Origin: Spinacia oleracea
Taxonomy: Eukaryota; Streptophyta; Magnoliopsida; Caryophyllales; Amaranthaceae
DNA length: 64,000 bases
Reading direction: 5' to 3'
NCBI RefSeq assembly: GCF_020520425.1
Contig: NC_079487.1
Location: forward strand, 1,426,001-1,490,000
This document shows, in pieces, positions 10,380-60,259 of this stretch (within the stretch, counting starts at the first letter, position 1; each line of letters opens with the position of its first letter). A program made the position numbers and the translations under genes. The notes below the pieces were generated by a model. That model did no database searches, was not told where the DNA came from, and worked only from the letters and a program-made list of their open reading frames with translations.

Positions 10380-13300
10380 ATGGCATGCCAAGTTATTACC
10401 CAGTCATGGAGCTTTTCTAGATTAGTAGGTGCCTTTCTTGATTTATCTATTGCTTACTTCCTCCTGTGTTGTTCCGCTATCGCCTTTTTCCTATCCAAAT
10501 TCCTTTCCCTCTTTGGTTTAACCCTACCTTGTCCTTGCAATGGTCTCTTTGGTTACCCTAGTAATCACGCTCCCTGCTTCCAACGCTTCTTACTTGATTG
10601 CCCCGCTGAAACCATTTCCTCTATTCATTTGTCTGTTAAAACCAAATTCCCTTTTGATTCCATTCTACCCAAGAAAGATGATCACTCCCAACTCAATTTG
10701 AAGTTACTCAAAGAAGGTTACTCGGATGATGGTGTGCTGCATTTACAAGGTGAAGCATCCTACAGCTCCTTTTCTGATCCAAGGAGGTCACACCACAGCC
10801 TTTCTGGTACTGACTCCTTTGGTAAATTTGACATTAAGGGCAAGACTCCTGCAACTCAAAGGTCAAGGCTTGGATTTAGGCGTCGTCGTAGAGCTAGTAT
10901 TGACTATGGAAAGTTTACTTCTTCCTCTTCTTATGATCACTTCAAGTCAGACTCCAGTAAAATAGAGAAGGTAGAGAAACCAACCACTGTCAACTTTTCT
11001 GGTAATTTCTTCCTCCTCTACTTTTCAAACTCTCCAATTAATTGTGCTGTTTATTATATAGTGCCTTCTTCATGGTTTAAGGTGGTTTTAACACTTTTTT
11101 CTTGTCAGGATTTGTTTTGTACATTATGTTAATTTTGCATCTTTGTAACTGGCAATGCCTTTGATTTTTCTACTACTTTATTACTGGTTGCTCAAATGTC
11201 CTTTTTCTTGGGACTCACAGGTGGGACTCTACCAGATTCTGAATCCAATGATGCAGCTGATGAGACTAAACCCTTGTATGACTATGCAACATTGTTTGAG
11301 AACCTTAAAAACAACCTAGAGCATGAGCATGGGGCTGATAGTGAAGATGTAAACGTTGTCAGGATTCTGGAACTAGCACTTGAGGAAGAACATGCTGCTC
11401 GATCCGAGTTGTTCTCTGAGCTAGAGCAAGAGAGACTTGCTGCTGCCTCTGCCGCAGATGAAGCTATGGCTATGATTTCACGACTGCAGGAGGAGAAAGC
11501 ATCTATTGAAATAGAGGCTCGACAGTACCAAAGGATATTAGAGGAAAAATCAGTTTATGATGCTGAAGAAATGGATATACTTAAAGAGATCATTGTTAGG
11601 AGAGAGCGGGAAAAACATTTCTTGGAGAAGGAACTTGAAGCCTATAGGAAGGTTTTCCAAGTAAACAACGGATGGGATAGTCAGTCAAATGAGGCAGAAA
11701 GACAAATTGAGGTCTCTGCTTTTGATCCTTCTGTAGATCCTATGTTGATTCTACAGCAATTCGGTCAGTCAATTGATAATGGAGAAAACATCGACAGAAA
11801 CTATTCTGATTATTCCTCTGCTTACATTCAGAAGCAAACTTCTACTGTATCTGAAGACAAAGAACTATCAGTTCTTCCACTTGACAAAAATGAAATGGAA
11901 ATTCCCGAATGTTCAAGTATTGTTCCAGCTTTGACTGATGATGAAGCTAATCAAGATATTCAGGAAAAAGGAATGTTATCCATGGATGCGATTCCAAGAT
12001 CTCAAGGGGAAAATAATAATGTTTTTCTCCAGAAGGAAACAATATGCGGTGCTGATGATGGAAAACAAATGCCACTGCAAGTTGTAGAGCCTCGTGTCCA
12101 TGATGTCCACATCGTGGATCCAGAACAGAGTATTCACAAAAATACTGATGGGAAGGAAGGTGATCAACTGCTCATACATAATAATGCTTCTAATGTTGTG
12201 AGACAATATGAACTAGAGATTAGCAGAAGCTCTTCAGATATAGTTGATCGGTTCCCAACAGCCAGCAGCTCGCCTGATAGAAGTTTTGTCTCTGAATTAC
12301 GCCGCAATTCTTTAACAGCAGTTGATCATGAGAGGCTGAAAATAGACGATGAGATTTGTTGGCTGAGAGCAAGACTGAGGACTGTTCAGGAAGAGAAAGG
12401 TAAGCTTAAGGGCTCTTTCGAACACCAAGAGAGGGCGAAAACCGAACTACAACTTCTGGAGGATATAGCATCCCAGCTCCGAGAGATTCGTCATCTAACG
12501 GCACCGGAGAAGGCTGCACGCCAGGCTTCCCTTCCACCCCTGTCTTCTAAGGTATACTCCTCGTAATAGTGTCATCCTGCACAATTGATATGCAATTAGA
12601 GGTTATTATTTGTTGACTTTCATCGATTGATGCTATATTCTGTGCAAGTTGTTAAAGCTGTGGGGTAGACTGTAAGGGTTGTTTGGTTAAAAAACCTTAT
12701 GGTAAATTATGTAAAATGACTACTCATGTTGGACCTTACAGACTGTGCCTTTCTTGGATCCTGCAATGGTAATTTTGCAATTACCCTACTGGATAATTGG
12801 ACTAGGATTAACCATTTAACCTAGTGTGGTGATTCACGGCTAGTAACATACTACCTGGCTGTGACATTGGATTTGAATTAAAACAAGGAATAATTCTTCT
12901 TTCTCCACACAGTTTGTTTGTGACAAGCCTTAAATAATGATCAACAAAGTGTTATAGACGGTCTATTATTCCTTAGGTGGGGTACTCTTCTAATACTAAG
13001 CAAAAAGGACTACAATATCCTTTATTATTTTGCACAATGTTTGCATTTTCTTACATAGGAATTGAACACCAAAGGTGTGTTATTTTAGCCCCTTGTGTAA
13101 ACTAGTTTTATTATTTTTGTTGGAAACTGAACTTGGAAGCTTTTAGACAGAAGCTGATGCCTTGGCTTCTTTCATGCCTAACTTGACTGGCTTCTTTTTC
13201 TTCGCTAGCTTGGTCGAGGGTTCAAAACCTTCAGACACCAACTTGTTTTCTTTCCAAATCAACACAAAGCAGGCAACTAAATATCACAGCCATCATTACA

Positions 13301-22919: not shown

Positions 22920-24320
22920 TCATGTGGTATCAGAAACCAGAAGAGCATCCCAGATGGAATCCATATCTAAGGAAGGCATTCTACTTAACTGGACAGCATG
23001 TGCATCAACAGTAACAGTGTGGTCAAATGAAACTTGATGGCTTCTCATCTTGTTACTACTTTCCATCATCATCATCATCTCAGATGATGATGATGATGTT
23101 CCAATTACTCTACCATCCAACTCAAATTGCCACTCTTTCTTCACTCCACTTATTGAATTTGGATCACCCGAGTTATTATTCATTAGAAAGGATGAAGTCG
23201 GGAGAACATCCCCTGATTTCTTAAGTCCAGCTTGCTGTGATATTGCTTGGAGCTTTGCTTCTAAGAGTGCTGCAGTACTTCCGTTTAAGGAATTAGCCTT
23301 AAGTAGATGCTTCTGATCTGGGAAATTCAGATGCGCATATTCTCCCCTCAGTATATATGCTGCAGTATCATAAGCAAATGCAGCCTCTTCAGCTGTGTCA
23401 AATGTACCCAACCACACCCTTGTCCTGTTTCTTGGTAATCTGATCTCTGCCACCCACTTTCCCCAGTGCCTTTGCCGTACTCCCCTATACAACTTCCCCG
23501 CTGAAGATGAAGATGAAGATGAAGATGAAGATGAAGATGAAGATGAAGATGATGATGATGACAATGATGATGAGCTCTTGTGAGGCTGAAGTAAGGTCTG
23601 CAGCCTTCTTCCAGTTGACTTCTTCATTGCCTGTGTCTTGGTAGGACTGAGCCTAAACTCAGTGCTGACTACTTTTGATGACAACTCCTCGCTCATTCTC
23701 AGCCATTGATTATGATTATGATTATGATTATGATTATGATTATGATTATGATTATGTACAGCAGGCAAGTAATGAGTTTGGCCACACTGCAGCAAGGGAT
23801 CTGCTAATACAGCATCTTGGGAGCTCCTTCCAATTCTTGGGCTGCTGATGCTGAATGAGGGATCCTGCATAACCTTATTAACCTCCAAGGTTAAATTTGA
23901 AAGGAGGTTAATAGGGGTTGAATGAGATTGTGATGCAGATGATGTTGTACACTGACTCAGCTGATCTCCAACTGCACTAGACTTGAAGAAATTAACAAAG
24001 GTAGAGGCTCTTGGAAATGTAAAATCAACACCAGAACCCAACTGAGTGACACTAGTATTATTATTATGATTATTATTATTATTATTATGTTTCAGGATCA
24101 TACATTGTTTTGACAAATTACAAGTTGAAGAAGTAGGCTCGAGGCTGCTAGTAGAACTTGGGCTATCCAAAAAGGGTAATGATCTGAATTCAATTCTACC
24201 ATCATCAGATTCATTGTGATCATCAAAGTTACCACCCCACATATGAATTGAATCACTACCCTTGTAAGGCAGCATCTTTCTCTGCATCAAGGTTTCCAAC
24301 TCTGAACAGTGATCCTCCAT
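22920..24320 (-). CDS. AP2/ERF transcription factor, ERF061/ERF062-like (DREB A-6 type)
   Basis: A single uninterrupted frame of 466 residues. One AP2 domain lies at about 277-334 ([20 protein letters not shown], then [20 protein letters not shown]), with Val at the DREB-type position and the subgroup-typical [11 protein letters not shown] end. The region after it ([13 protein letters not shown]) is also shared with ERF061/062 as I remember them. The N-terminal half is low-complexity: Asn-rich at 79-88, an Asn-His alternation at about 190-205 and a long Ser run at about 249-273, each coded by a microsatellite. AP2 proteins bind GCC-box or DRE-type DNA in the nucleus; target genes cannot be told from sequence. 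The start at 24320 gives the first long conserved acidic N terminus. The gene appears intact and intronless, usual for this subgroup. Confidence 0.9.
23502..23577 (-). repeat. Poly-Ser coding microsatellite in the ERF gene
   Basis: Plus-strand GATGAA/GATGAT repeats code for about 25 Ser residues just before the AP2 domain. Confidence 0.9.
23706..23757 (-). repeat. (Asn-His)n coding hexamer repeat in the ERF gene
   Basis: About eight tandem ATTATG hexamers (plus strand) code for alternating His and Asn. Confidence 0.9.
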
Positions 24321-33000: not shown

Positions 33001-34893
33001 GCGAAGAGGTTTTCAGAGTCCTTTTGATTTAGTCCATTACATCCCACAACCAAAAGAACAAATGAATCTTTGGCTGCATCGGAAATGGACATATTTGGTT
33101 AAAATACTAACTGGCCTCCAGATATACTGAATGCTACACAGAATGCTAATGTACAAAATAACCCCAAAAGGGCATTACTATATTTTGGAACCAAAATTGA
33201 TAAGGAAGATTAGAAACTAGTTTATGTGGGAGAAATGCGATCCCCAGGAACCACTACCCATCCTCCCACGAAATAATGTCATCTTAGCCTCTCTTACGGG
33301 TAACTTGATATATCAATTTCAAACAGAGCTGGGAGAAGGAAGCTAGCAAGAAGATGGTCTTGCACAACAGTTTGATCTTGTCCTCTACTTTTAATTTAAA
33401 GTAACAATTTCATAGACTCGGAAAACAAGGAATAATATTCATTCCCCTCCTCTATTACAGAACTGGAGAAGGAATATAATCAAAGCCAACAAGTTTGCAT
33501 AACGGTTTTGATCCTCTCCTCCACACCCTCAGTCCAAGCCAGTTGCAATTGCCTTCACCTAAAAAAAGTAGTTGACAAAGAGATTACCCACTAACTTCAT
33601 GCAACAGCATTGACCACACAATCAGCATCAAAAAGCTCCCCTTGGCACTGCAAGTACTGCCAAAAATCAGAAGTAGACAGCCACAATAAAAGGCAACACA
33701 AGAAAGCTACTAGAACTTTAGAAGTCTAGAAGAGAGTAGCAATGGTCTCAGATTTACATCAATAAGTGTCCCTCGGATTCTTTGTCTCCTTTGGAATAAA
33801 TTCCATGAGCACATGAAACCAACAATGGCCTCAAAAGAGAACTTTTGGAAACAAAGAATGTTTGTCAGAAGATTACAAGAAACAGGGTGGAGGAGGTAAT
33901 AGCTGCAATAGGGAATGGATGAAGCAAAAGAGAGGAAGAGGGAAATAAAGAAACAAAAGACAGAAAGCTCGGATATTATTTCCGATAACAACCAAACAGG
34001 TGTTTGCTGGGTATGAATTCCTCATCCTGATACCTCTGACAATTTTATTAGTAACATAGCACCCACACAGAAATCCATATAAGTAGACGACGGTTTCTAA
34101 TATGCTAACTTATGCCAGATTAGATTCTCCTCATGTAAAACCAGTACCTTAGTCTGAAATACATCTGGGTATGCCACAATAACGGCATAACAACACCATG
34201 CTCCCAATATCCCGTCCTGAGGTGATAATAAACCATCGTCCTAACCTACTTTATCAGAAAAGCCAAACAGGAAAAGGATAGCATCTCTAAACAAATGTTA
34301 AACAATGCAACCTTGAACATACTGCAGTGAATCTAGCTCTAAGCTAACAAAATAGGTACACCAAAAAGTTCTATTCTGCCATTGAAGCGGCCAGGAATGA
34401 GATCAGCTCCTTGAGGAAGGAAAAGAATGACAGATCAAACTCATGCAAAAAAATCCCACTGCCATCTTTTTCCACTATAACACACCCCTGCAAAGCTTTG
34501 TTATTTTTATACTGATGAAGCTTGCTGCACCCTTAGCTGTATGTGAAACCCCTTAGTTGCGTAGGAAACTTTTTATCTGCTCAACTTAAGAATTATGTAC
34601 CAAAAAATTGAATGAAATTTCTAAAAATAAACTGCACCTTGAAAATCATTCAAGATCCTAATATTGATCTAAAGAGTTGAAGCCATAAAACAACTCAAGA
34701 TATGTCAGTAAATTGTGAGGTATGTGATTATGCTATGCCATAAACAAGATTTCACAATCCAAAATCACTTTCCCCTTTACAACAGGTCACAACTTTTCTT
34801 GTCCTTGGAACTCAACATCAATGTCAAACCCAGTGCATCCGAAGTCTAAACTTGTAATTATGTAAACATAACATGCTGAGGTAACCAGTTAAA
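33001..34893. other. Intergenic, no supported gene
   Basis: No conserved coding signal on either strand. Confidence 0.45.
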
Positions 34894-36076
34894 TTAGGGG
34901 GAAAGATTCCAAATTTAGCAATCTGGAACCTTCCCCCCCTCTTGAATTTCGGTGAATTCAGTCTGCAAAAGTAATGTGGGTTTCATCCAACAAAAATTGG
35001 CATCTAGAAGTTAGGTGCTGTACAGTGGCAGTTGCCCTTCAACTTAAAGTGCAAAATATGAAAAAATAACAAACATAATGCACAAGAAGAAATGGTTTAA
35101 TTCAACACTCCTAGTTTTCCGGTATAAATGTATACAATCTGAAGTTTTAATTCCATGGACAAACCATCTAGGGGAAAAGATTCCTAATTTAACAGTGAAG
35201 ATGGTAAGCAATCTAGAACTTCCCCCTCTTGTATTTCTGTGAATTCAGTCTGCAAAAGTAGTGTCATTCCAACAAAAAAATTCATCCAGAAGTTAGGTTC
35301 AATACTAGTGTGCAATGAACTGATATAAGGGCACTATAGAAAGTACCTTTAACCATTTGCTATGAATTATGATACCATTTGCTACCAATTAAATGGAAGA
35401 CGAAGATGATTTGATTATTGAACTGGACTTACAGAAAAGTAACCAATATTCAAGCTTTCGAGAGGCTTGATTCTCTCTCAAATGAACTCTTAAAAGCTCA
35501 ACACAAAACTCATCAATATTCAACATCTCTTTCCTCTCTTTAATATGCTAATATATAGCACTTTTCCCTAACTAGCTTCCTAACTTATTCTCTAACCTAC
35601 CCATAAGGCCATAACTAACTTATAAAGATACTACCTAAAGTGGCCCTTTCCCTCATATTGATCCATAGCATATTGTTAGTAACTTGAAGAAATACAGATA
35701 GTTTGTTAGAGTAGAAGCTCTTAAAACAAGGCAAATTAGAGATAGAAATCATGTTGAATATTGATTAAGTATTTGGTTGAGCTTTTAAGAGTTCGTTGGG
35801 AGAGATTCAAGTCTCCTGAACAGTTGAATATTGATTACTTCCCTGTAATTTCCGGCTCATTAAAATAAAATTATCATCCTCTTTACTATTTTCTGCCATT
35901 AATGGTGCCCAAGCTAAGTTGATTCATAGCATAGTGGCCAAAGTTCAAGAATCAAAATACACAAAAGTAACAAAAAGAATGCATAGGAAGAAACAGTCCA
36001 AAACAACACTTCTATTTATTCGGAAGGAGATGTATACAACCTAAAGTTTTAATTCCATGGACAAGCCATCGAGGGA
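34894..36076. repeat. Diverged direct duplications in non-coding DNA
   Basis: About 34894-35012 is repeated at 35168-35303 (shared GAATTCAGTCTGCAAAAGTA and CAGAAGTTAGGT-type words). About 35079-35172 is repeated at 35980-36076 (shared GTTTTAATTCCATGGACAA). A weaker third echo lies near 36180-36235. Confidence 0.6.
35437..35840. mobile_element. Foldback element with ~95-bp inverted repeats
   Basis: The left arm starts AAGTAACCAATATTCAA and includes CTCTTAAAAGCTCAACACAAA. The right arm (about 35747-35840) complements it, ending TTGAATATTGATTACTT. 404 bp, non-coding; it lies between the duplicated blocks. Confidence 0.65.
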
Positions 36077-36427
36077 AGGAAGGCCAACACCACCACTCAC
36101 ATTATCAATTTATCATTGAAAGAGTAAAGATTTGTGACCTTCTTAACTCTTATTGCAAAAACCATTATTGTATGCAACTCAAAGTTTATACTGTGGTCAA
36201 ATCATCTAGGAAGAACCTCAAAAACAACACTCCCTTCTGATTGAAGGAAATCAAAGGAAATAGTCAAACAATAAAGATGTAATAAACATACAAGTTACGA
36301 GGACAGTGACATTAAAAAAAAGGAACATTAGAACTCATAATTCCACATCGAAAAAGCACAGTTAAACAAACTCATGGAGTATCAATTTATTTGATTTATA
36401 TTTAAAATAGAAAATTAGAATAAGCTG

Positions 36428-36865
36428 TTATTTCTTGTTGCTGGTACCTCCACCACTAGTTTGGCCGGAACCGGCGGCCTTCTTCGCCATCTTCTCTTGC
36501 AGCGCCTTTGCATCCCTGTAATAATTATAATAAACAAATAAAGTTAAAATTATAGTGAGAACTAATCATGACTATCTTTAAAAATTAAAATAAAAAAGGA
36601 AAAAGACCTTTCACGGCGTTGTTCGGGAGTGAGGCCATCATCTTTCTTGGTGCTCTTCTTAGCGCTACCGCCGACGCGAGACGCAGCTCTTTCACGATCC
36701 TTATCTCTCTGATTACCTCGTTCAATCACATCAACAATACCAATTAAGGATACTCCAATCTATCACATACTCCAATTATCTATTAATTTAATTTAATTAA
36801 ATTAAATCAACAAAATTAGGGTAAAAATTAAAAAGGAAAACAGAGTATAAAAGGATATGAGTCAT
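36428..36865 (-). CDS. SERF/4F5 family small basic protein, first intron of AT-AC type
   Basis: Three coding exons on the minus strand: 36865-36859 (ATGACTC), 36719-36608 and 36515-36428; 68 residues. The protein starts MTRGNQRDKDRERA and has the EDRK-rich N terminus, LTPEQRRERDAKALQEK middle and Lys-rich end of the small EDRK-rich factor family, whose human members affect amyloid aggregation; the plant role is unclear. Intron 2 is an ordinary GT-AG intron (36607-36516). Intron 1 has no GT-AG solution that gives the family N terminus: joining ATGACTC to GAGGTAATC restores MTRGNQ exactly, with intron ends AT and AC and a perfect U12-type 5' site. The upstream leader has a CT-rich tract, as in many plant 5' UTRs. 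Confidence 0.88.
36720..36858 (-). other. U12-type AT-AC intron 1 of the SERF gene
   Basis: 139 nt. The 5' end reads ATATCCTTTT (U12 consensus ATATCCTT) and the 3' end AC. A branch-site match TCCTTAAT lies at 36750-36743, about 24 nt from the 3' splice site, longer than the usual spacing of 10-20 nt. The intron splits codon 3. Confidence 0.8.
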
Positions 36866-37170
36866 TGCAGCAGAAACAGCAACAGCAACAGCAGCGAAGG
36901 AGATCAGGAATTCAGACAACCTGTATCCACAAAAACACAAGGAAAACTTGAAATCGAGAAGGACAGAGGAAGAGGAGGAGGAGGAGGAGGAGGAGGAGAG
37001 AGAGTGTTACCCTTATTCGTTATTCCCACTATGCCAAATTAAGAGTTGGACTTGGGGCTGCTGTTTTTATTCCCAGATTTCCCAGCCGTCTTTGCTTTTA
37101 TGGTCCTCTTATTCACTCTCAAACGTATTTCACCAAATTTGATCTCAGGTCTCCAAATAGTCAAAGGAAG
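36866..37170 (-). promoter_or_regulatory. 5' leader and promoter side of the SERF gene
   Basis: On the minus strand this includes CTCCTCC repeats (plus strand AGGAGG, about 36965-36998) and CTGTTG repeats near 36875-36893. No TATA box is assigned. Confidence 0.4.
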
Positions 37171-38618
37171 CATATTTGTCCAATTATTAGAGCGTCACGA
37201 TGAATGAAAAATAAAATTTTTAATTTATCTTTGAATTAAAAAAACCGAAGAATAAATTTTTTAATTTATCTTTGAATTAAAAAAACTGACGGTCAGGTTG
37301 ATAATTAATTAGGTACCACATAAATATTTTAATTAATTAATCTAATATATACTCCCTCTGTCCCGGAATACTTGCACTGCTTTTCTTATAAAGTCGTCAC
37401 GGATTACTTGCACCGTTTCTATAAATGGTAAAATTTTATTAATATTATATCAACTATCCCTTTCACATGTCATTTTGTGGTCCCATGCACCCTCCCCATC
37501 AACTACCATCTAATTAAATAATAAATCAATTACTTTGTATTAAATTTTTTGCCGGTCAAACCGGTTCAAGTATTCTGGGACGTAGAGAGTATATATAAAG
37601 GGGGATTTTTTGGAGAGCATTGGGAGCGCCACGTAAGATTTCTATGTCATCAAACATTAATATTATTTTAGATTTATTTAAAAATAGGTAAATAAAGACC
37701 CGGTAAAAGATAATAAGAGATAAAGATAAATAAAACTCAGTAAAAGATAATAAGAGAAAAATAAAAATAGATAAATAAAGAACCGGTAAAAGATAATAAG
37801 AGATAAATTTTGAATTTTTAAAAGATAAATAAGAGAAAAAAATATTAATAGATAAAAAAAAGACCCGGTAAAAGATAATAAGAAATAAATTTTAAAATTT
37901 TTTAATAGATAAATAAAGACTCGTTAAAACTGTCATACTCATTGATTATAAAAACAATAACGGTTCTAACTCTCGCTTAGAGTTGAAAAAAAAATCTCAT
38001 AAGAAAAAGAATTTAACCTGTGCATCGCACGGGCTTTAAATCTAGTTGCTAATATATACAACTCCATCCAAAATCAAACACTCTAATAATTAAAAAATAA
38101 ATCTAAAATAAAATTCATACAAAATCAAAAATTAATCTAAACTAAAATTCAATCCAAAATCAAACACTAATGCAATATTAGAGCGCCACCTAGGAAATCT
38201 AATAGTTTCGGCCAAAGAAAAATAAGATTTTGAAATTATTTTTGAAGTAAAAAAGTCGAGTGCCACGTAGATAAATAGTTATGTACCACGTAGATATTTT
38301 TATTAGTTAATTATTAATATTATGCATATACAATTTTATCCAAAATCAAACACTCTAATAATTAAAAAATAAATCTAAAATAAAATTTAATCAAAAATCT
38401 AAAACTAATCTAATCAAATATATAAAATATATCAGTTGGTATATATATGAGTATTATTTTAACTTAACAATTTATTAGAATCCGTGCATCGCACGGGCTA
38501 AAATCTAGTTAAAATTAATCTAATATAATATATAAAATATAGCAGTTGGTATATATATGATTTTTATTTTAACTTAACAATTTAATAGAATCCGTGCATT
38601 GCACGAGCTAAAATCTAG
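37171..38618 (+). mobile_element. Helitron cluster with three 3' termini, interrupted by a MITE
   Basis: Three Helitron-type 3' ends follow one another: GTGCATCGCACGGGC then CTAG at 38042-38045, the same hairpin then CTAG at 38505-38508, and GTGCATTGCACGAGC then CTAG at 38615-38618. Segments beginning GAGCGCCAC or GAGCGTCAC (37187, about 37626, 38172) and followed by GTACCACGTAGAT-type words are Helitron 5'-region sequence. One copy probably runs from about 37590 to 38045, inserted with the MITE at 37352-37589 into an older copy that starts near 37171-37187. No Rep/helicase coding sequence, so non-autonomous. Confidence 0.6.
37352..37589. mobile_element. Stowaway MITE, intact copy of the 5685 family
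   Basis: TA-flanked, 238 bp, with ends CTCCCTCTGTCCCGGAATAC and ...GTATTCTGGGACGTAGAG. Its interior (TCTTATAAAGTCGTCACGGA) matches the split copy at 5685-7818. Confidence 0.8.
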
Positions 38619-42068: not shown

Positions 42069-45000
42069 TCAAAGCCATTCTCCAATATGCTTGATTCCCA
42101 TAGCTGCAGTGTGCGAGTTGTGCTTCGCCTGCGGCAGAGGTTTAGTTAATGGATCTGATATGTTGTCATCAGTTCCAATTTTGCTTATCTCGACTTCTTT
42201 TCTTTCAACGAACTCTCGTAGAAGGTGAAATCTACGAAGTACATGCTTGACTCTCTGGTGGTGTCTAGGCTCTTTTGCCTGTGCAATAGCTCCGTTATTA
42301 TCACAATACAGGGCTATTGGTCCTTTAATGGAGGGGACTACACCAAGTTCTCCTATGAACTTCCTTAGCCATATAGCTTCCTTTGCTGCTTCATGTGCAG
42401 CAATGTACTCCGCTTCAGTTGTAGAATCCGCAATGGTGCTTTGCTTAGCACTTTTCCAGCTTACTGCTCCTCCGTTGAGGCAGAAGACAAACCCAGACTG
42501 TGATCTGAAATCATCTTTGTCGGTTTGGAAACTTGCGTCCGTATAGCCTTTAACAATTAATTCATCATCTCCACCATAGACCAGGAAGTCATCTTTGTGC
42601 CTTTTCAGGTACTTCAGAATGTTCTTGGCAGCAGTCCAATGCGCCTCTCCTGGGTCTGACTGGTATCTGCTCGTAGCACTGAGTGCGTACGCAACATCCG
42701 GGCGTGTACATATCATAGCATACATTATTGAACCAATCAATGATGCATATGGAATCCCATTCATTCGTCTACGCTCATCAAGTGTTTTTGGGCACTGAGT
42801 CTTGCTTAGAGTCATTCCATGAGACATGGGTAGGTAGCCTCGCTTGGAGTCCGCCATCTTGAACCTATCAAGCACCTTATTGATATAAGTGCTTTGACTA
42901 AGTCCAATCATCTTTTTAGATCTATCTCTGTAAATCTTGATGCCCAATATGTATTGTGCTTCTCCTAGATCCTTCATCGAAAAACATTTCCCAAGCCAAA
43001 TCTTGACAGAGTTCAACATAGGAATGTCATTTCCGATAAGCAATATGTCGTCGACATATAATACTAGGAAAGCAATTTTGCTCCCACTGACCTTCTTGTA
43101 TACACAAGATTCGTCCGCGTTTTTGATGAAACCAAAGTCACTGACTGCTTCATCAAAACGTATATTCCAGCTCCTGGATGCCTGCTTCAATCCGTAGATT
43201 GACTTCTTTAGCTTGCATACCTTTTTAGCATTCTTTGGATCCTCAAAACCTTCAGGCTGTGTCATAAACACAGTTTCTGTTAAAACGCCGTTTAAGAAAG
43301 CAGTTTTGACATCCATCTGCCATATTTCGTAATCGTAATATGCAGCGATTGCTAACATTATTCGAATAGACTTTAGCATTGCAACTGGTGAAAAGGTTTC
43401 ATCGTAATCCACACCGTGGACTTGCCTGTAACCTTTTGCAACCAATCTAGCTTTGAAAACTTCAAGTTTCCCATCCTTGTCCTTTTTCAGTTTGAAAACC
43501 CATTTGCTTCCAATGGCTTGGTAGCCATCTGGCAAATCGACCAAATCCCATACTTGGTTTTCAGACATGGAGTCTAATTCAGATTGCATGGCTTCTTGCC
43601 ATTGCTTGGAGCTAGGGCTCGTCATAGCTTGCTTGTAAGTCGCAGGTTCATCACTTTCAAGTAATAGAACGTCATAGCTCTCGTTCGTCAAAATACCTAA
43701 GTACCTTTCCGGTTGAGATCTATATCTTTGCGATCTACGCGGGGTAACATTTCTAGATTGACCATGATTCTCACCAGATTCTTCTAAAGATCTCTGAGTT
43801 TCATCCTGAATGTCATCTTGAGCATTCTCTAGAGTTTGTTGTTCGACTCGAATTTCTTCGAGGTCTACTTTTCTCCCACTTGTCATTTTGGAAATGTGAT
43901 CCTTCTCCAAAAAGACACCATCTCGAGCAACAAACACCTTGTTCTCAGATGTATTGTAGAAGTAATACCCCTTTGTTTCCTTTGGATAGCCCACAAGGAT
44001 ACATTTGTCAGATTTTGGATGAAGTTTGTCTGAAATTAATCGTTTGACGTATACTTCACATCCCCAAATCTTAAGAAAAGACACATTTGGAGGCTTTCCA
44101 AACCATAATTCGTATGGAGTCTTTTGACAGCTTTAGACGGAGCTCTATTTATAGTGAGTGCAGCTGTATTTAGTGCATGTCCCCAAAATTCTAATGGAAG
44201 TTCGGCCTGACCCATCATTGACCTGACCATGTCTAGCAAGGTTCTGTTCCTCCGTTCTGACACACCGTTCCATTGTGGTGTTCCAGGAGGAGTCAATTCT
44301 GATAGAATTCCACATTCTTTCAGATGGTCATCAAATTCATAGCTCAGATATTCACCGCCTCTATCAGACCGCAGTGCCTTAATCTTCTTGCCTAATTGAT
44401 TCTCTACTTCACTCTGAAATTCCTTGAATTTGTCAAAGGATTCAGACTTATGCTTCATTAGGTAGACATAACCATACCTACTGAAGTCATCAGTGAAAGT
44501 GATAAAGTAGCTGAAACCACCTCTAGCATTTGTACTCATTGGTCCACATACATCTGTATGGATTAAACCCAACAGTTCATTTGCTCTTTCTCCAACTTTA
44601 GAGAAAGGTTGCTTCGTCATTTTGCCAAGTAAACACGATTCGCATTTACCATAATCCTCTAAGTCAAATGGTTCTAGAATTCCTTCCCTTTGAAGTCTTT
44701 CTAAGCGTTTCAAGTTTATATGGCCTAATCGACAATGCCACAGATAGGTGAGATCTGAATCATCCTTTTTGGCCTTTTTGGTATTTATGTTATATACTTG
44801 TTTGTCGTGATCTAATAAATAAAGTCCATTGACTAATCTAGCAGATCCATAAAACATCTCTTTAAAATAAAACGAACAACTATTGTCTTTTATTATAAAG
44901 GAAAATCCCTTAGCATCTAAGCAAGAAACTGAAATGATGTTTTTAGTAAGACTTGGAACATGGAAACATTCTTCCAGTTCCAAAACTAGCCCGGAGGGCA

Positions 45001-46033
45001 ACGACAAATAGTAAGTTCCTACAGCTAATGCAGCAATCCGTGCTCCATTTCCCACTCGTAGGTCGACTTCACCCTTGCTTAACTTTCTACTTCTTCTTAG
45101 TCCCTGTGGATTGGAACATAAGTGTGAGCCACAACCTGTATCTAATACCCAAGAAGTTGAATTAGCAAGTATACAGTCTATAACGAAAATACCTGAAGAT
45201 GGAACGACTGTTCCGTTCTTCTGATCTTCCTTTAGCTTCAAGCAATCTCTCTTCCAATGCCCCTTCTTCTTGCAGTAGAAGCATTCGGATTCAAAAGTGG
45301 GTTGACTGACCTTTCTCTTTGCAGATTTGGCGCCAGTTTGCTTAGTTGGGCTGGCTTTGTTGCCACCTTTCTTAGCATTCCTCTTCTTTCCAGATTTCTT
45401 GAACTTGCCCCCACGCACCATAAGCACATCCTGCTTATCACTTTTGAGCGTCTTTTCAGCGGTCTTCAGCATACCGTGAAGCTCAGTGAGCGTTTTGTCC
45501 AGACTATTCATACTGTAGTTCAGTTTGAACTGATCATACCCGCTATGAAGAGAATGGAGGATGGTGTCTATAGTCATTTCCTGAGAAAATTGCTGATCCA
45601 GCCGACTCATATTCTCAATGAGTCCAATCATTTTGAGAACATGTGGACTTACGGGCTCACCTTTCTTAAGCTTGGTCTCAAGAATTTGCCTATGAGTCTC
45701 GAATCTTTCGACTCGAGCCAGATCTTGGAACATGTTCTTCAACTCACTGATGATTGTGAAAGCATCTGAGTTGATGAACGTTTTCTGCAGATCCGCACTC
45801 ATGGTGGCGAGCATTAGACATTTCACATCCTTGTTGGCATCAATCCAACGATTGAGGGCTGCCTGAGTGACCCCGTCGCCTGCAGCTTCGGGCATCGCCT
45901 CATCTAGGACATACTCCTTTTCTTCCTGCATAAGAACTATTTGCAAGTTCCTTTGCCAGTCAAGGAAGTTTTTCCCGTTCAACTTCTCCTTTTTGAGAAT
46001 TGATCGAATGTTGAATGAATTGTTGTTTGCCAT
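42069..46033 (-). CDS. Copia gag-pol polyprotein, one frameshift
   Basis: Starts MANNNSFNIRS at 46033. In order: a UBN2-type gag, a CCHC zinc knuckle (CFYCKKKGHWKRDC), the aspartic protease motif LDTGCGSHLC, a pre-integrase HHCC region, integrase (HTDVCGP, SDRGGEY, NGVSERRN), copia reverse transcriptase with an intact YVDD box, and RNase H (YTDAS, TEAEY, DNNGA). It ends at 42069. Compared with the second copy at 57051, one base is missing near 44125, shifting the frame between integrase and RT: the gag-integrase part is open from 46033 to beyond the shift and the RT-RNase H part resumes in the next frame. All other catalytic motifs I can see are present. Products would form the particle and copy the element's RNA; this copy could act only if the shift is tolerated. 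Confidence 0.92.
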
Positions 46034-48822
46034 ATTAAAAACTACAATTGAAAAGAATAAACAAATAAATAACCATTCACAGTTTCTCTTAATAAACTTA
46101 AATTCTAGCATACATACATAATTCAATGTTTATTAAGCATTTTATTCAAATTATGTGTTCCGGCAGGTGTGAATAAAATGATTCCAAGATCCTAAAATCA
46201 TTGAAGAACTAAGCACAGTTTGTCGACTTAATCCTAGAACATCTTAGGTAAGCAAACGCCTTTTGCTAATAGTCTAGAAACTATTCTTGGTTGATAGGTA
46301 CGTCTAAGAACTTATTAGGTAAACCTATCGAATTTGCCACGACATAAAAGGACTCCTTACTTATATCGTTGAGTTTCACCAAAACTAACATGTACTCACA
46401 ATTATTTGTGTACCTTGCCCCTTTAGGACCAATAAGTAACACCTCGCTGAGCGAAAACTATTACTAGATTGATGTAAAGGATATCCAAGCAAGTGTATAT
46501 TTTGGCATGGCACCTTTTAACTCAATTTTTAAGTTTGGAACTTAAGGCTCTTACTATGTTGGTTAGATTTTAAGTGAACTAAAATCCTTAATCATGCAAC
46601 ATAATCAAGCTTTTGATCTCATGCATTTTAAGACATATTTAAAACAATAAATAACTTAAAACATGCATAAGATATTTGTGATCTAGTATGGCCCGACTTC
46701 ATCTTGAAGCTTTGACTTCAAAGTCCGTCTTGAAAATCTCCGTGGGAGGCACCATTTTCTTCAAATAGGATAAGCTATAACTAATTACAACTATTTGATG
46801 GTTCGCAGACCATATTTGAATTGAAAAATAACTTTGGTACTTTAGACCAATTACATTCAAATTAATGGTACGCAGACCATATTTTCTATCCTATTTGGGC
46901 CATACTAGTCACTTCATAACCTGCAAAACAGTACATATACAATATATACCATTCACCCATTCATTATCATGAATGGCCCACATAGCTGGTTAGTAAAACA
47001 CATTATGCATCACGTAAACATTTGCAGCAATTAATCAAGGGCACCAATAATCTACCAATTATTCAGTCCTTATTAATTCTAATCAAGTTGTTTTAACCTT
47101 AAGGATTTGTAGACCTAATCAAGAGTTTATGACTAAAAAGCGCTCCCACTTAAACCAATAAATTCATATGCTTTACCAATTTTAAACATAAAAATGTATT
47201 TCTAGTCTAACCGGAAACATACAAATTTAATTAAAATTTAAAGCTCATATAAATTTATAATTGAATCCAAAAAGTTTAATTTAATTTCAGTCGCATTTAA
47301 ATTAATTCATGATTTTAATTTTAGTAAAATAATTAGAATAAATAACATTTATTATAATTATAATATTCAAAATTAAAATCCAAGAAAATAATTTAAATTA
47401 TTAATTTTAAAATTAATTAAAATTACGTGAACTGAAATTTTCAAATTAAACATTCAAAACGATCTAATCGTAACGCAAACACCCTACGCGTTGCACGCCC
47501 ATGGGCCGCACGCACACAGCCATTGCTGGCCATGTGCGCGCAGCCCATGCGCTCGTCGCATAGCTGCTGCATCCCCATCGCAAGCCACCACACGCATTGG
47601 TGCTCGCTGCGCGCGCCAGCACTCATCGCACGCGGGCTATCGCTCGCAGTGCGCGCGCGACATCGCTCGCTGGGCGCGCGACATCGCTCGCTGGGCGCGC
47701 GAGCCATCGCTCGCTGGGCGCGCGACATCGCTCGCTGGGCGGGCGACATCGCTCGCTGTGCGCGCGAGCAATGCTAGGCGCAGCGCTCGTGGCACGCGAG
47801 CTTGCGCTCGCTGCGCGCGAGGCTGCGCGCTCTTGTGCGAGGCAGCGCGCGTTGTGGCGCAGCTCGCTTGCTGCCCACACGCGACTGCCTTGTCTCGCCC
47901 TCCGCCCATGCCCATTCGTCCATTGGTCGTGGCACACGACACAAGGCAGGGCTGCTGCCTTGTGCTCGTGCACTACGCCCTTGCTCATTGCATTCGTGCC
48001 GCACGGGCGACGAGCTCCCTTGCTCGTCGTCGCATGCCCGCATTATACAACACCCCTTAAGGGTAACACGAAGCGTCCATTGCTTCGTGCGTGCAAGTTA
48101 TATGAACGAATCGCATAAAAATTTAAAATTTATATTTAAAATTAATGACAAATTAATAAATAATATTAATTTCATAATTTTAGAGCGAAAAAATCGAAAA
48201 TTTATTATCCAATTGATTTCCGATTGTTATGGATTCAAGTCTAGGTCATAAAAATTTAAAATTTATCGTAAATTTACAATTTTTATGGTGGTTTTTAATC
48301 ATAGGTTTCTAATTAAATTACAATTAATTATGAAAATCAAATTAATTCTAAATTATTCTAATTTTCAACAAATTAATCATAATTACAAATTAGATTGCAT
48401 AATTAACAAGACTAGGCATTCAAACTTGTTAAACATATGCAGTAGGTCAATCAAAAATTCAAGATTTATCAACAAGAATCGCAAATATTTAATTTAACAT
48501 CTTAAATTTACGAAATTTTGCATTCGAAAAACTAAAACCTTCGAAAAGTCATAGTTAGGCTTCGAATTTGAGAATTCTGGGTTCGGCAGAAAAATACTAT
48601 TTTTGTCAAAATTTTAGAATGCCTTTTACATGTGGAATTGACACAAAAATCACTCAATTCGGATGAGTAACGAAGAAACTGCCGAAAAACTGCGTACGTA
48701 TAATTAAATAAACGCAATTTGCAATTAATTAACAATTACGAAAATTAATCACCCCTTTTAATTCTTGCAAATTTGTAATATTTAACCATGTTCATGCAAT
48801 TTAGATTATGAAAATAATAAGG
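46034..48822 (-). other. Long non-coding leader of the copia element
   Basis: 2.8 kb between PBS and gag, AT-rich except for a GC-rich island (about 47460-48060). The same leader layout occurs in the plus-strand copy (54356-57050). Long open frames over the GC-rich island on both strands are repeat artefacts. Confidence 0.75.
47636..47766. repeat. 21-bp GC-rich minisatellite in the copia leader
   Basis: About six copies of a CATCGCTCGCTGGGCGCGCG unit, some with small changes. Confidence 0.9.
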
Positions 48823-57050: not shown

Positions 57051-60000
57051 ATGGCAAACAACAATTCATTCAACATTCGATCAATTCTCGAAAAGGAGAA
57101 GTTGAGCGGGAAAAACTTCCTTGACTGGCAAAGGAACTTGCAAATAGTTCTTATGCAGGAAGAAAAGGAGTATGTCCTGGAAGAGGCGATGCCCGAAGCC
57201 GCAGGCGAAGGGGTCACTCAAGCAGCCCTCAATCGTTGGATTGATGCCAACAAGGATGTGAAATGTCTAATGCTCGCCACCATGAGTGCAGATCTGCAGA
57301 AAACGTTCATCAACTCAGATGCTTTCACAATCATCAGTGAGTTGAAGAACATGTTCCAAGATCTGGCTCGAGTCGAAAGATTCGAGACTCATAGGCAAAT
57401 TCTTGAGACCAAACTTAAGAAAGGCGAGCCCGTAAGTCCACATGTTCTCAAAATGATTGGACTCATTGAGAATATGAGTCGGCTGGATCAGCAATTCTTT
57501 CAGGAAATGGCTGTAGACACCATCCTCCATTCTCTTCATAACGGGTATGATCAGTTCAAACTGAACTACAGTATGAATAGTCTGGACAAAACGCTCACTG
57601 AGCTTCACGGTATGCTGAATACCGCTGAAAAGACGCTCAAAAGTGATAAGCAAGATGTGCTTATGGTGCGTGGGGGCAAGTTCAAGAAATCTGGAAAGAA
57701 GAGGAATGCTAAGAAAGGTGGCAACAAGGCCAGCCCAACTAAGAAAACTGGCGCCAAGTCTGAAAAGAGGAAGGTCAGTCAACCCACTTCTGAATCCGAA
57801 TGCTTCTACTGCAAGAAGAAGGGGCATTGGAAGAGAGATTGCTTGAAGCTAAAGGAAGATCAGAAGAACGGAACAGTCGTTCCATCTTCAGGTATTTTCG
57901 TTATAGACTGTATACTTGCTAATTCAACTTCTTGGGTATTAGATACAGGTTGTGGCTCACACTTATGTTCCAATTCACAAGGACTAAGAAGAAGTAGAAA
58001 GTTAAGCAAGGGTGAAGTCGACCTACGAGTGGGAAATGGAGCACGGATTGCTGCATTAGCTGTAGGAACTTATTATTTGTCGTTGCCCTCTGGGCTAGTT
58101 TTGGAAATGGAAGAGTGTTTCCATGTTCCAAGCCTTACTAAAAACATCATTTCAGTTTCTTGCTTAGATGCTAAGGGATTTTCCTTTTTAATAAAAGACA
58201 ATAGTTGTTCGTTTTATTTTAAAGAGATGTTTTATGGATCTGCTAGATTAGTCAATGGACTTTATTTATTAGATCACGACAAACAAGTTTATAACATAAA
58301 TACCAAAAAGGCCAAAAAGGATGATTCAGATCGCACCTATCTGTGGCATTGTTGATTAGGCCATATTAACTTGAAACGCATGGAAAGACTTCAAAAGGAA
58401 GGAATTCTAGAACCATTTGACTTAGAGGATTATGGTAAGTGCGAATCATGTTTACTTGGCAAAATGACAAAGCAACCTTTCTCTAAAGTTAGAGAAAGAG
58501 CAACTGAACTATTGGGTTTAATCCATACAGATGTATGTGGACCAATGAGTACAAATGCTAGAGGTGGTTTCAGCTACTTTATCACTTTCACTAATGACTT
58601 CAGTAGATATGGTTATGTCAACCTAATGAAGCATAAGTCTGAATCCTTTGACAAATTCAAGGAATTTCAGAGTGAAGTAGAGAATCAATTAGGAAAGAAG
58701 ATTAAGGCACTGCGGTCTGATAGAGGCGGTAAATATCTGAGCTATGAATTTGATGACCATCTGAAAGAATGTGGAATTCTATCAGAATTGACTCCTCCTG
58801 GAACACCACAATGGAATGGTGTGTCGGAACGGAGGAACAAAACCTTGCTAGACATGGTTAGGTCAATGATGGGTCAGGCCGAACTTTCATTAGAATTTTG
58901 GGGACATGCACTAAATACAGCCGCACTCACTATAAATAGAGCTCCGTCTAAAGCTGTCGAAAAGAATCCATATGAGTTATGGTTTGGAAAGCCTCCAAAA
59001 GTGTCTTTTCTTAAGATTTGGGGATGTGAAGTATACGTCAAACGATTAATTTCAGACAAACTTCATCCGAAATCTGACAAATGTATCCTTGTGGGCTACC
59101 CAAAGGAAACAAAGGGGTATTACTTCTACAATACATCTGAGAACAAGGTGTTTGTTGCTCGAGATGGTGTCTTTTTGGAGAAGAATCACATTTCCAAAAT
59201 GACAAGTGGGAGAAAAGTAGACCTCGAAGAAATTCGAGTCGAACAACAAACTCTAGAGAATGCTCAAGATGACATTCAGGATGAAACTCAGAGATCTTTA
59301 GAAGAATCTGGTGAGAATCATGGTCAACCTAGAGATTTAACCCCGCGTAGATCACAGAGATATAGATCTTAACCGGAAAGGTACTTAGGTATTTTGACGA
59401 ACGAGAGCTATGACGTTCTATTACTTGAAAGTGATGAACCTGCGACTTACAAACAAGCTATGACGAGCCCTAGCTCCAAGCAATGGCAAGAAGCCATGCA
59501 ATCTGAATTAGACTCCATGTCAGAAAACCAAGTATGGGATTTGGTCGATTTGCCAGATGGCTACCAAGCCATTGGAAGCAAATGGGTTTTCAAACTGAAA
59601 AAGGACAAGGATGGGAAACTTGAAGTTTTCAAAGCTAGATTGGTTGCAAAAGGTTACAGGCAAGTACACGGTGTGGATTACGATGAAACCTTTTCACCAG
59701 TTGCAATGCTAAAGTCTATTCGGATAATGTTAGCAATCGCTGCATATTACGATTACGAAATATGGCAGATGGATGTCAAAACCGCTTTCTTAAACGGCGT
59801 TTTAACAGAAACTGTGTTTATGACACAGCCTGAAGGTTTTGAGGATCCAAAGAATGCTAAAAAGGTATGCAAGCTAAAGAAATCAATCTACGGATTGAAG
59901 CAGGCATCCAGGAGCTGGAATATAGGTTTTGATGAAGCAGTCAGTGACTTTGGTTTCATCAAGAACGCAGACGAATCTTGTGTATACAAGAAGGTCAGTG

Positions 60001-60259
60001 GGAGCAAAATTTCTTTCCTAGTATTATATGTCAACGACATATTACTTATCGGAAATGACATTCCTATGTTGAACTCTGTCAAGATTTGGCTTGGGAAATG
60101 TTTTTCGATGAAGGATCTAGGAGAAGCACAGTACATATTGGGCATCAAGATTTACAGAGATAGATCTAAAAAGATGATTGGACTTAGTCAAAGCACTTAT
60201 ATCAATAAGGTGCTTGATAGGTTCAAGATGGCAGACTCCAAGCGAGGCTAGCTACCCAT
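57051..60259 (+). pseudogene. Copia gag-pol with three stops and an altered RT active site
   Basis: One continuous frame from 57051 with stops at 58353-58355 (pre-integrase), 59370-59372 (between integrase and RT) and 60249-60251 (RT). Gag, the CCHC knuckle (about residue 251), the protease DTG (about 298) and the integrase Asp (about 494) are present. At 60033-60035 the RT box reads YVND in place of YVDD, losing a catalytic Asp. In the integrase SDRGG segment the next residue is Lys where the sister copy has Glu. The gypsy insertion removes everything after residue about 1069. This copy cannot make active RT. Confidence 0.9.

Follow-up and report, generated by a model that had tools for sequence, protein, structure and literature searches.

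The spinach SERF/4F5 gene in the window (the whole 64-kb stretch of DNA that was analysed) almost certainly carries a genuine U12-type AT-AC intron, which splits codon 3 in phase 1 and most likely predates the split between monocots and eudicots; the probability of this reading is put at about 95%. The U12-type AT-AC assignment had been made in a first-pass annotation of the same DNA, and it is supported by the sequence of the gene, by a public spinach protein, and by traces of intron read-through in the protein models of relatives. The intron is a well-preserved case of a type already known and involves no new mechanism.

The SERF gene and its codon-3 intron

The SERF/4F5 gene lies on the minus strand and consists of three exons, which when joined from the window are translated as MTRGNQRDKDRERAASRVGGSAKKSTKKDDGLTPEQRRERDAKALQEKMAKKAAGSGQTSGGGTSNKK, a 68-aa product ending in SGGGTSNKK. 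This product was matched by PF04419 (SERF-like_N) with 33.6 bits against a curated cut-off of 22.3 (E 7.4e-8). Read on the minus strand, ...TGCTGCA ATGACTC is followed by the intron, ATATCCTTTTATACTC ... GGAGTATCCTTAATTGGTATTGTTGATGTGATTGAAC, after which exon 2 opens at 36719 with GAGGTAATCAGAGAG, and joining across the intron gives ATG ACT CGA GGT AAT CAG AGA, which encodes MTRGNQR. The intron is 77% A+T (40 A and 67 T in 139 nt) and its terminal bases are GAAC (36723-36720). Its placement at 36720-36858 in the first-pass annotation was exact when the minus strand was re-read, as were the seven coding bases of the first exon, the AC end, and the MTRGNQR obtained on joining. The features of the gene are collected below.

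Table 1. Features of the SERF/4F5 gene, with positions in the window
Feature	Position	Strand	Remarks
Coding portion of exon 1 (7 nt), ATGACTC	36859..36865	-	conserved M-T, then Arg3 codon base 1
Intron 1, 139 nt, phase 1, AT-AC, U12-type	36720..36858	-	restores MTRGNQR; reproduces SOVF_061950 isoform A
U12-type 5' splice site ATATCCTTTT	36849..36858	-	MTHIL read-through signature in relatives
Branch candidate 1 TCCTTAATT	36742..36750	-	second A 24 nt from exon 2
Branch candidate 2 ATTGTTGAT	36730..36738	-	A 11 nt from exon 2; 6/9 to TTCCTTRAY
AC acceptor	36720..36721	-	first AC or AG downstream of TCCTTAAT
Exon 2, 112 nt	36608..36719	-	Arg3 codon bases 2 and 3 to ...RRER
Intron 2, ordinary GT-AG	36516..36607	-	
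Exon 3 coding part, to TAA	36428..36515	-	yields 68-aa product ending SGGGTSNKK
Alternative 3' GT-AG intron of isoform A, 2.8 kb	33648..36447	-	donor GTACCAGCAA, acceptor ...CTTGCAG; gives VPRGAF
Last coding segment of isoform A (alternative), ending in TGA	33628..33647	-	

Open-frame joins linking an ATG exon farther upstream with exon 2 were enumerated, in which the start and donor lay within 1.5 kb upstream, no more than 200 nt separated the start from the donor, the acceptor stood no more than 400 nt ahead of exon 2, and the intron measured at least 60 nt. Within these limits M[TSA]RGNQR was produced by none of 41 GT-AG joins, which bears out the earlier claim that no GT-AG choice works, by none of 18 GC-AG joins, and by one of 19 AT-AC joins, this single productive join being the pair reported here, 36859 to 36719. 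By inspection, the same junction slid one base upstream has CA-AA ends and an identical product, and the junction has no GT-AG equivalent.

If the intron is left in place, the same ATG reads 22 codons (MTHILLYSVFLFNFYPNFVDLI) and meets a stop at 36799-36797. In the frame of exon 2 no ATG was found between the last upstream stop and Arg3, and none is in frame in the 3' part of the intron. The SERF protein therefore depends on the splicing of intron 1, since the unspliced ATG frame stops ahead of exon 2 and no other start was found that gives exon 2 the N terminus of the family.

The best protein match was SOVF_061950 isoform A (P0001) of Spinacia oleracea, 68 aa long and starting with MTRGNQR, which was reproduced letter for letter from the window with the AT-AC junction at its start; the gene is thus already annotated with the right start. 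Within the SERF/4F5 family (PF04419; SOVF_061950), this isoform A protein is identical to the one derived from the window, its C terminus being VPRGAF and not the GTSNKK of the SGGGTSNKK form, a product of likewise 68 aa that the window encodes in addition. In the building of the SOVF gene set, AUGUSTUS was guided by hints from 108 million isogenic mRNA-seq reads, as described in PMC4556409, while in the account of Arabidopsis Nd-1 in PMC5716242 non-canonical introns were completely absent from ab initio AUGUSTUS models. RNA-seq support is therefore likely to stand behind the AT-AC junction of SOVF_061950.

Two low-complexity runs were seen in the 5' region of the gene on the minus strand, a CTG/TTG run directly before the ATG (36866-36896) and a CCT run at about 36970-37000.

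Read-through traces in the protein models of other plants

The evidence from relatives consists of protein models, among which wrong models carry translated intron sequence. A comparison of SERF orthologues for a U12 intron at codon 3 had been proposed as a check on the first-pass annotation, and signatures of the donor, the acceptor and the branch were all encountered in these models. The 257 plant SERF proteins compared were pooled from the best 120 of 381, 120 of 238 and 120 of 275 matches. A fixed rule sorted them into 101 with the canonical start, 37 extended upstream of M[TSA], 86 divergent before residue 3 and 33 without the motif, the divergent share being raised by design through the padded query of the second and third searches, which favours longer models. 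The 33 motif-less proteins were left out of the counts; ten of them read A-R-G-D-Q-R, with the Arg kept and an Ala before it. In the first search the best 120 of 381 matches comprised 96 canonical, 7 upstream-extended and 15 divergent models, at least three of the latter labelled partial (P0045, P0077, P0112), and 2 without the motif. The earlier expectation that gene finders would lose the start codon thus fails in spinach, where the public model starts with MTRGNQR, and is borne out elsewhere: as read from protein records alone, the SERF start is lost in 17 of these 120 best matches, either by divergence just before Arg3 or by lack of the start motif.

The donor is recorded as the peptide MTHIL, which is the translation of ATG ACN C|AT ATC CTN, that is, of a donor that has been read through. 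It was found in 11 of the 257 plant SERF proteins, from eight genera (three proteins from Vitis, two from Brassica, and one each from Daucus, Lupinus, Gossypium, Eutrema, Zizania and Mucuna), at the start in eight and internally in three, with variable sequence after it. MTRIL, the peptide expected from a GT donor, occurred in none of the 257.

The acceptor and the branch have left signatures as well. Of the 83 divergent models that are distinct, 74 retain Arg3, the other nine having S (four), E (two), G, L and C (one each). Exon 2 contributes just bases 2 and 3 of the Arg3 codon, so that in a model running directly on into exon 2 a retained Arg3 implies that the last intron base is C or A and not the G of AG. 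The residue before Arg3 lacks an NNA codon in 2 of 82 models versus 294 of 994 at the control positions -2 to -14 (p 1.4e-9), and Leu followed by Asn, Asp or Thr (L[NDT]) stands at -5/-4 in 15 of 81 versus no more than 3 at each of the other positions between -1 and -14 (p 1e-12), both p values being optimistic, since these tests were devised after some sequences had been viewed and related models were counted as independent. From the retention of Arg3 and the NNA-codon residue before it, the acceptor in the relatives most likely reads AC. In translation L[NDT] fits CTT AAY, CTT GAY or TTA ACN, and its position would set the branch A of the relatives at a distance of 11-12 nt from the exon; the signature is absent at -4 in 66 of the 81 divergent models. 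The wider pattern [LFV][NDT], devised also after sight of the V-D of the window, was met in 19 of 81.

On the evidence of these protein models, the codon-3 intron is conserved in flowering plants. Furthermore, MTHIL is present both in a grass, Zizania, and in a eudicot, Vitis, which suggests that the intron is older than the divergence of monocots and eudicots. As for orthologous intron DNA, none was confirmed among 238 pattern matches in viral contigs, and in genome contigs just 2 weak bacterial matches were obtained among 204.

By eye, one partial protein from Bienertia sinuspersici (P0232) looks similar to P0043, the second SERF of spinach; it contains CLSFLNWIG-CGNQR. In its gene a branch similar to TTCCTTAAC could sit 11 nt from the exon, and the Cys in place of Arg3 would mean that the last intron base is T or that the codon has changed.

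Splice signals, branch site and competing readings

Directly after the seventh coding base stands the donor motif ATATCCTTTT, which agrees with the consensus RTATCCTT of U12-type 5' splice sites. It is its placement that is evidence, in that a perfect 10-base donor follows the seventh coding base and is paired with an AC that restores the conserved N terminus; the chance of this 10-mer at a given position is about 5 in a million (0.58 over 128,000 positions). Motif counts were rejected as evidence, both motifs being at chance level in the window, where ATATCCTTTT was observed once against 0.58 expected and TCCTTRATY five times against 4.89.

In minor splicing U11 gives way to U6atac at the donor, and the first downstream AC then serves as acceptor. 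In the spinach gene, the minor spliceosome would be expected to recognise ATATCCTTTT by U11 and then by U6atac, and the branch motif by U12; a cut at the first AC downstream would join ATGACTC to GAGGTAAT and so give the 68-aa SERF protein. We infer that splicing by U11/U12 proceeds in this manner in spinach, and binding of the donor and the branch together by the U11/U12 pair is described in PMC3584512. No other AG or AC lies between the second A of TCCTTAAT and the acceptor, which makes the acceptor of intron 1 the first AC downstream of the branch motif.

Two branch candidates are present. The first, TCCTTAATT, agrees at 9 of 9 positions with the plant consensus TCCTTRATY as quoted in PMC5932401, and ATCCTTAAT agrees at 8 of 9 with TTCCTTRAY; chance would produce a perfect TCCTTRATY 0.004 times in 139 nt of the composition of intron 1, and 0.07 times a TTRAY at one of the four places that would suit. 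The spacing from branch to acceptor is 24 nt for this perfect motif and 11 nt for the weak one, ATTGTTGAT. A distance of about 24 nt, longer than usual, had been noted before, and the measurement agrees with it, the signature in relatives lying at 11-12 nt and the optimum for U12-type introns being given as 11-13 nt in PMC3584512. In our judgement the branch point is probably TCCTTAATT in preference to ATTGTTGAT. It is possible, though we hold it to be the lesser likelihood, that the weak motif serves as the branch and TCCTTAATT is a decoy, a variant that leaves the AT-AC intron itself as described. Its 11 nt falls within the reported optimum, and it sits at the same position as the LN/LD/LT signature of the relatives (15 of 81 at -4); against it, the motif is without CC and matches at 6 of 9 positions, and the perfect TCCTTRATY found elsewhere in the intron has far the smaller chance expectation given above. 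A 12-nt stretch in intron 1 is flanked by a 4-nt direct repeat, and with TCCTTAATT as the branch, a 12-nt insertion in spinach could have shifted the former branch, then 12 nt away, to 24 nt.

A start that lies elsewhere, with an ordinary GT-AG intron between an upstream exon and either exon 2 or the 3' part of the intron, is very improbable. RGNQR is kept in 25 of the 41 open GT-AG joins, and at least six joins read ...IGVSLIGIVDVIERGNQR, like models in other plants, but the full M[TSA]RGNQR is restored by none of the 41. M1 and R3 are kept in 13 of 13 aligned proteins, all of them picked from canonical models, and canonical starts prevail in the first search; moreover, the divergent models vary upstream and agree from Arg3 on, in the manner of a fast-changing intron that has been read through. 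Least probable of all is removal of the intron by the major (U2) spliceosome, as happens with a few AT-AC introns: according to PMC3584512 and PMC2831892 AT-AC ends alone do not decide the class, and those of intron 1 fit the U12-type class, in which AT-AC or GT-AG is allowed, but in the U2-type AT-AC introns of PMC2831892 position +5 is a G, where intron 1 has C within a perfect ATATCCTT, and intron 1 possesses a U12 branch consensus and, by inspection, no distinct polypyrimidine tract after the branch (TTGGTATTGTTGATGTGATTGAAC).

Known AT-AC introns, possible roles and the rest of the window

The U12-type AT-AC intron of SERF resembles intron 4 of CBP20, as described in PMC5932401, in its AT-AC ends and U12-type branch motif. 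CBP20 intron 4, whose position is reported there to be conserved in ten plant species, is 134 nt long in Arabidopsis compared with 139 nt for SERF intron 1. Unlike the CBP20 intron, that of SERF splits codon 3 and leaves a coding first exon of 7 nt, and it has 24 nt between its perfect branch motif and the acceptor. AT-AC introns account for 26% of Arabidopsis U12-type introns in PMC7367187 and for 4.8% in another count quoted in PMC5932401, and PMC5716242 gives 81 among 119,097 Arabidopsis introns. Minor introns were found significantly 5'-biased in 112 of 290 streptophyte species (PMC10639083), a trend that a minor intron at codon 3 fits. The minor intron of SERF was not named in the literature matches listed; supplementary lists, IAOD, ERISdb and U12DB lie beyond that search and may well list it.

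The gene offers a clean case of a start codon that is reached solely through a minor intron. One could imagine, at rather long odds, that the intron acts as an on/off gate by which SERF output tracks the activity of the minor spliceosome, and that the branch at 24 nt weakens or regulates the splice in spinach; were this so, retention would tune output by leading to a 22-codon dead end. This gate and the branch spacing are the parts worth testing. With a 7-nt coding exon, a short intron and no in-frame ATG in the 3' part of the intron, the gene furthermore offers a simple reporter of minor splicing in plants, and a means of testing what distance from the acceptor a U12 branch tolerates.

Across the 64-kb window, Rfam (gathering threshold) and tRNA scans gave no match. 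Just upstream of the SERF gene, at 37345-37596, 39-nt inverted repeats that are 82% complementary stand 174 nt apart and contain TACTCCCTCTGTCCC; the element is presumably a MITE of the Stowaway type. Copia-type LTR retrotransposon coding regions were seen in opposite orientation at 42069-46126 (-) and 57051-60251 (+), their reverse transcriptase parts being 99% identical across 285 aa. Pfam RVT_2 was found in both; Retrotran_gag_2 was tested for, and found, in the one at 57051-60251 (+) only. An AP2-domain transcription factor ORF of 466 aa with His-Asn and Ser runs occupies 22920-24320 (-). At 11196-12566 (+) a 456-aa ORF has a Zein-binding domain (PF04576), and a 250-aa ORF just upstream of it, at 10380-11132, may belong to the same gene.
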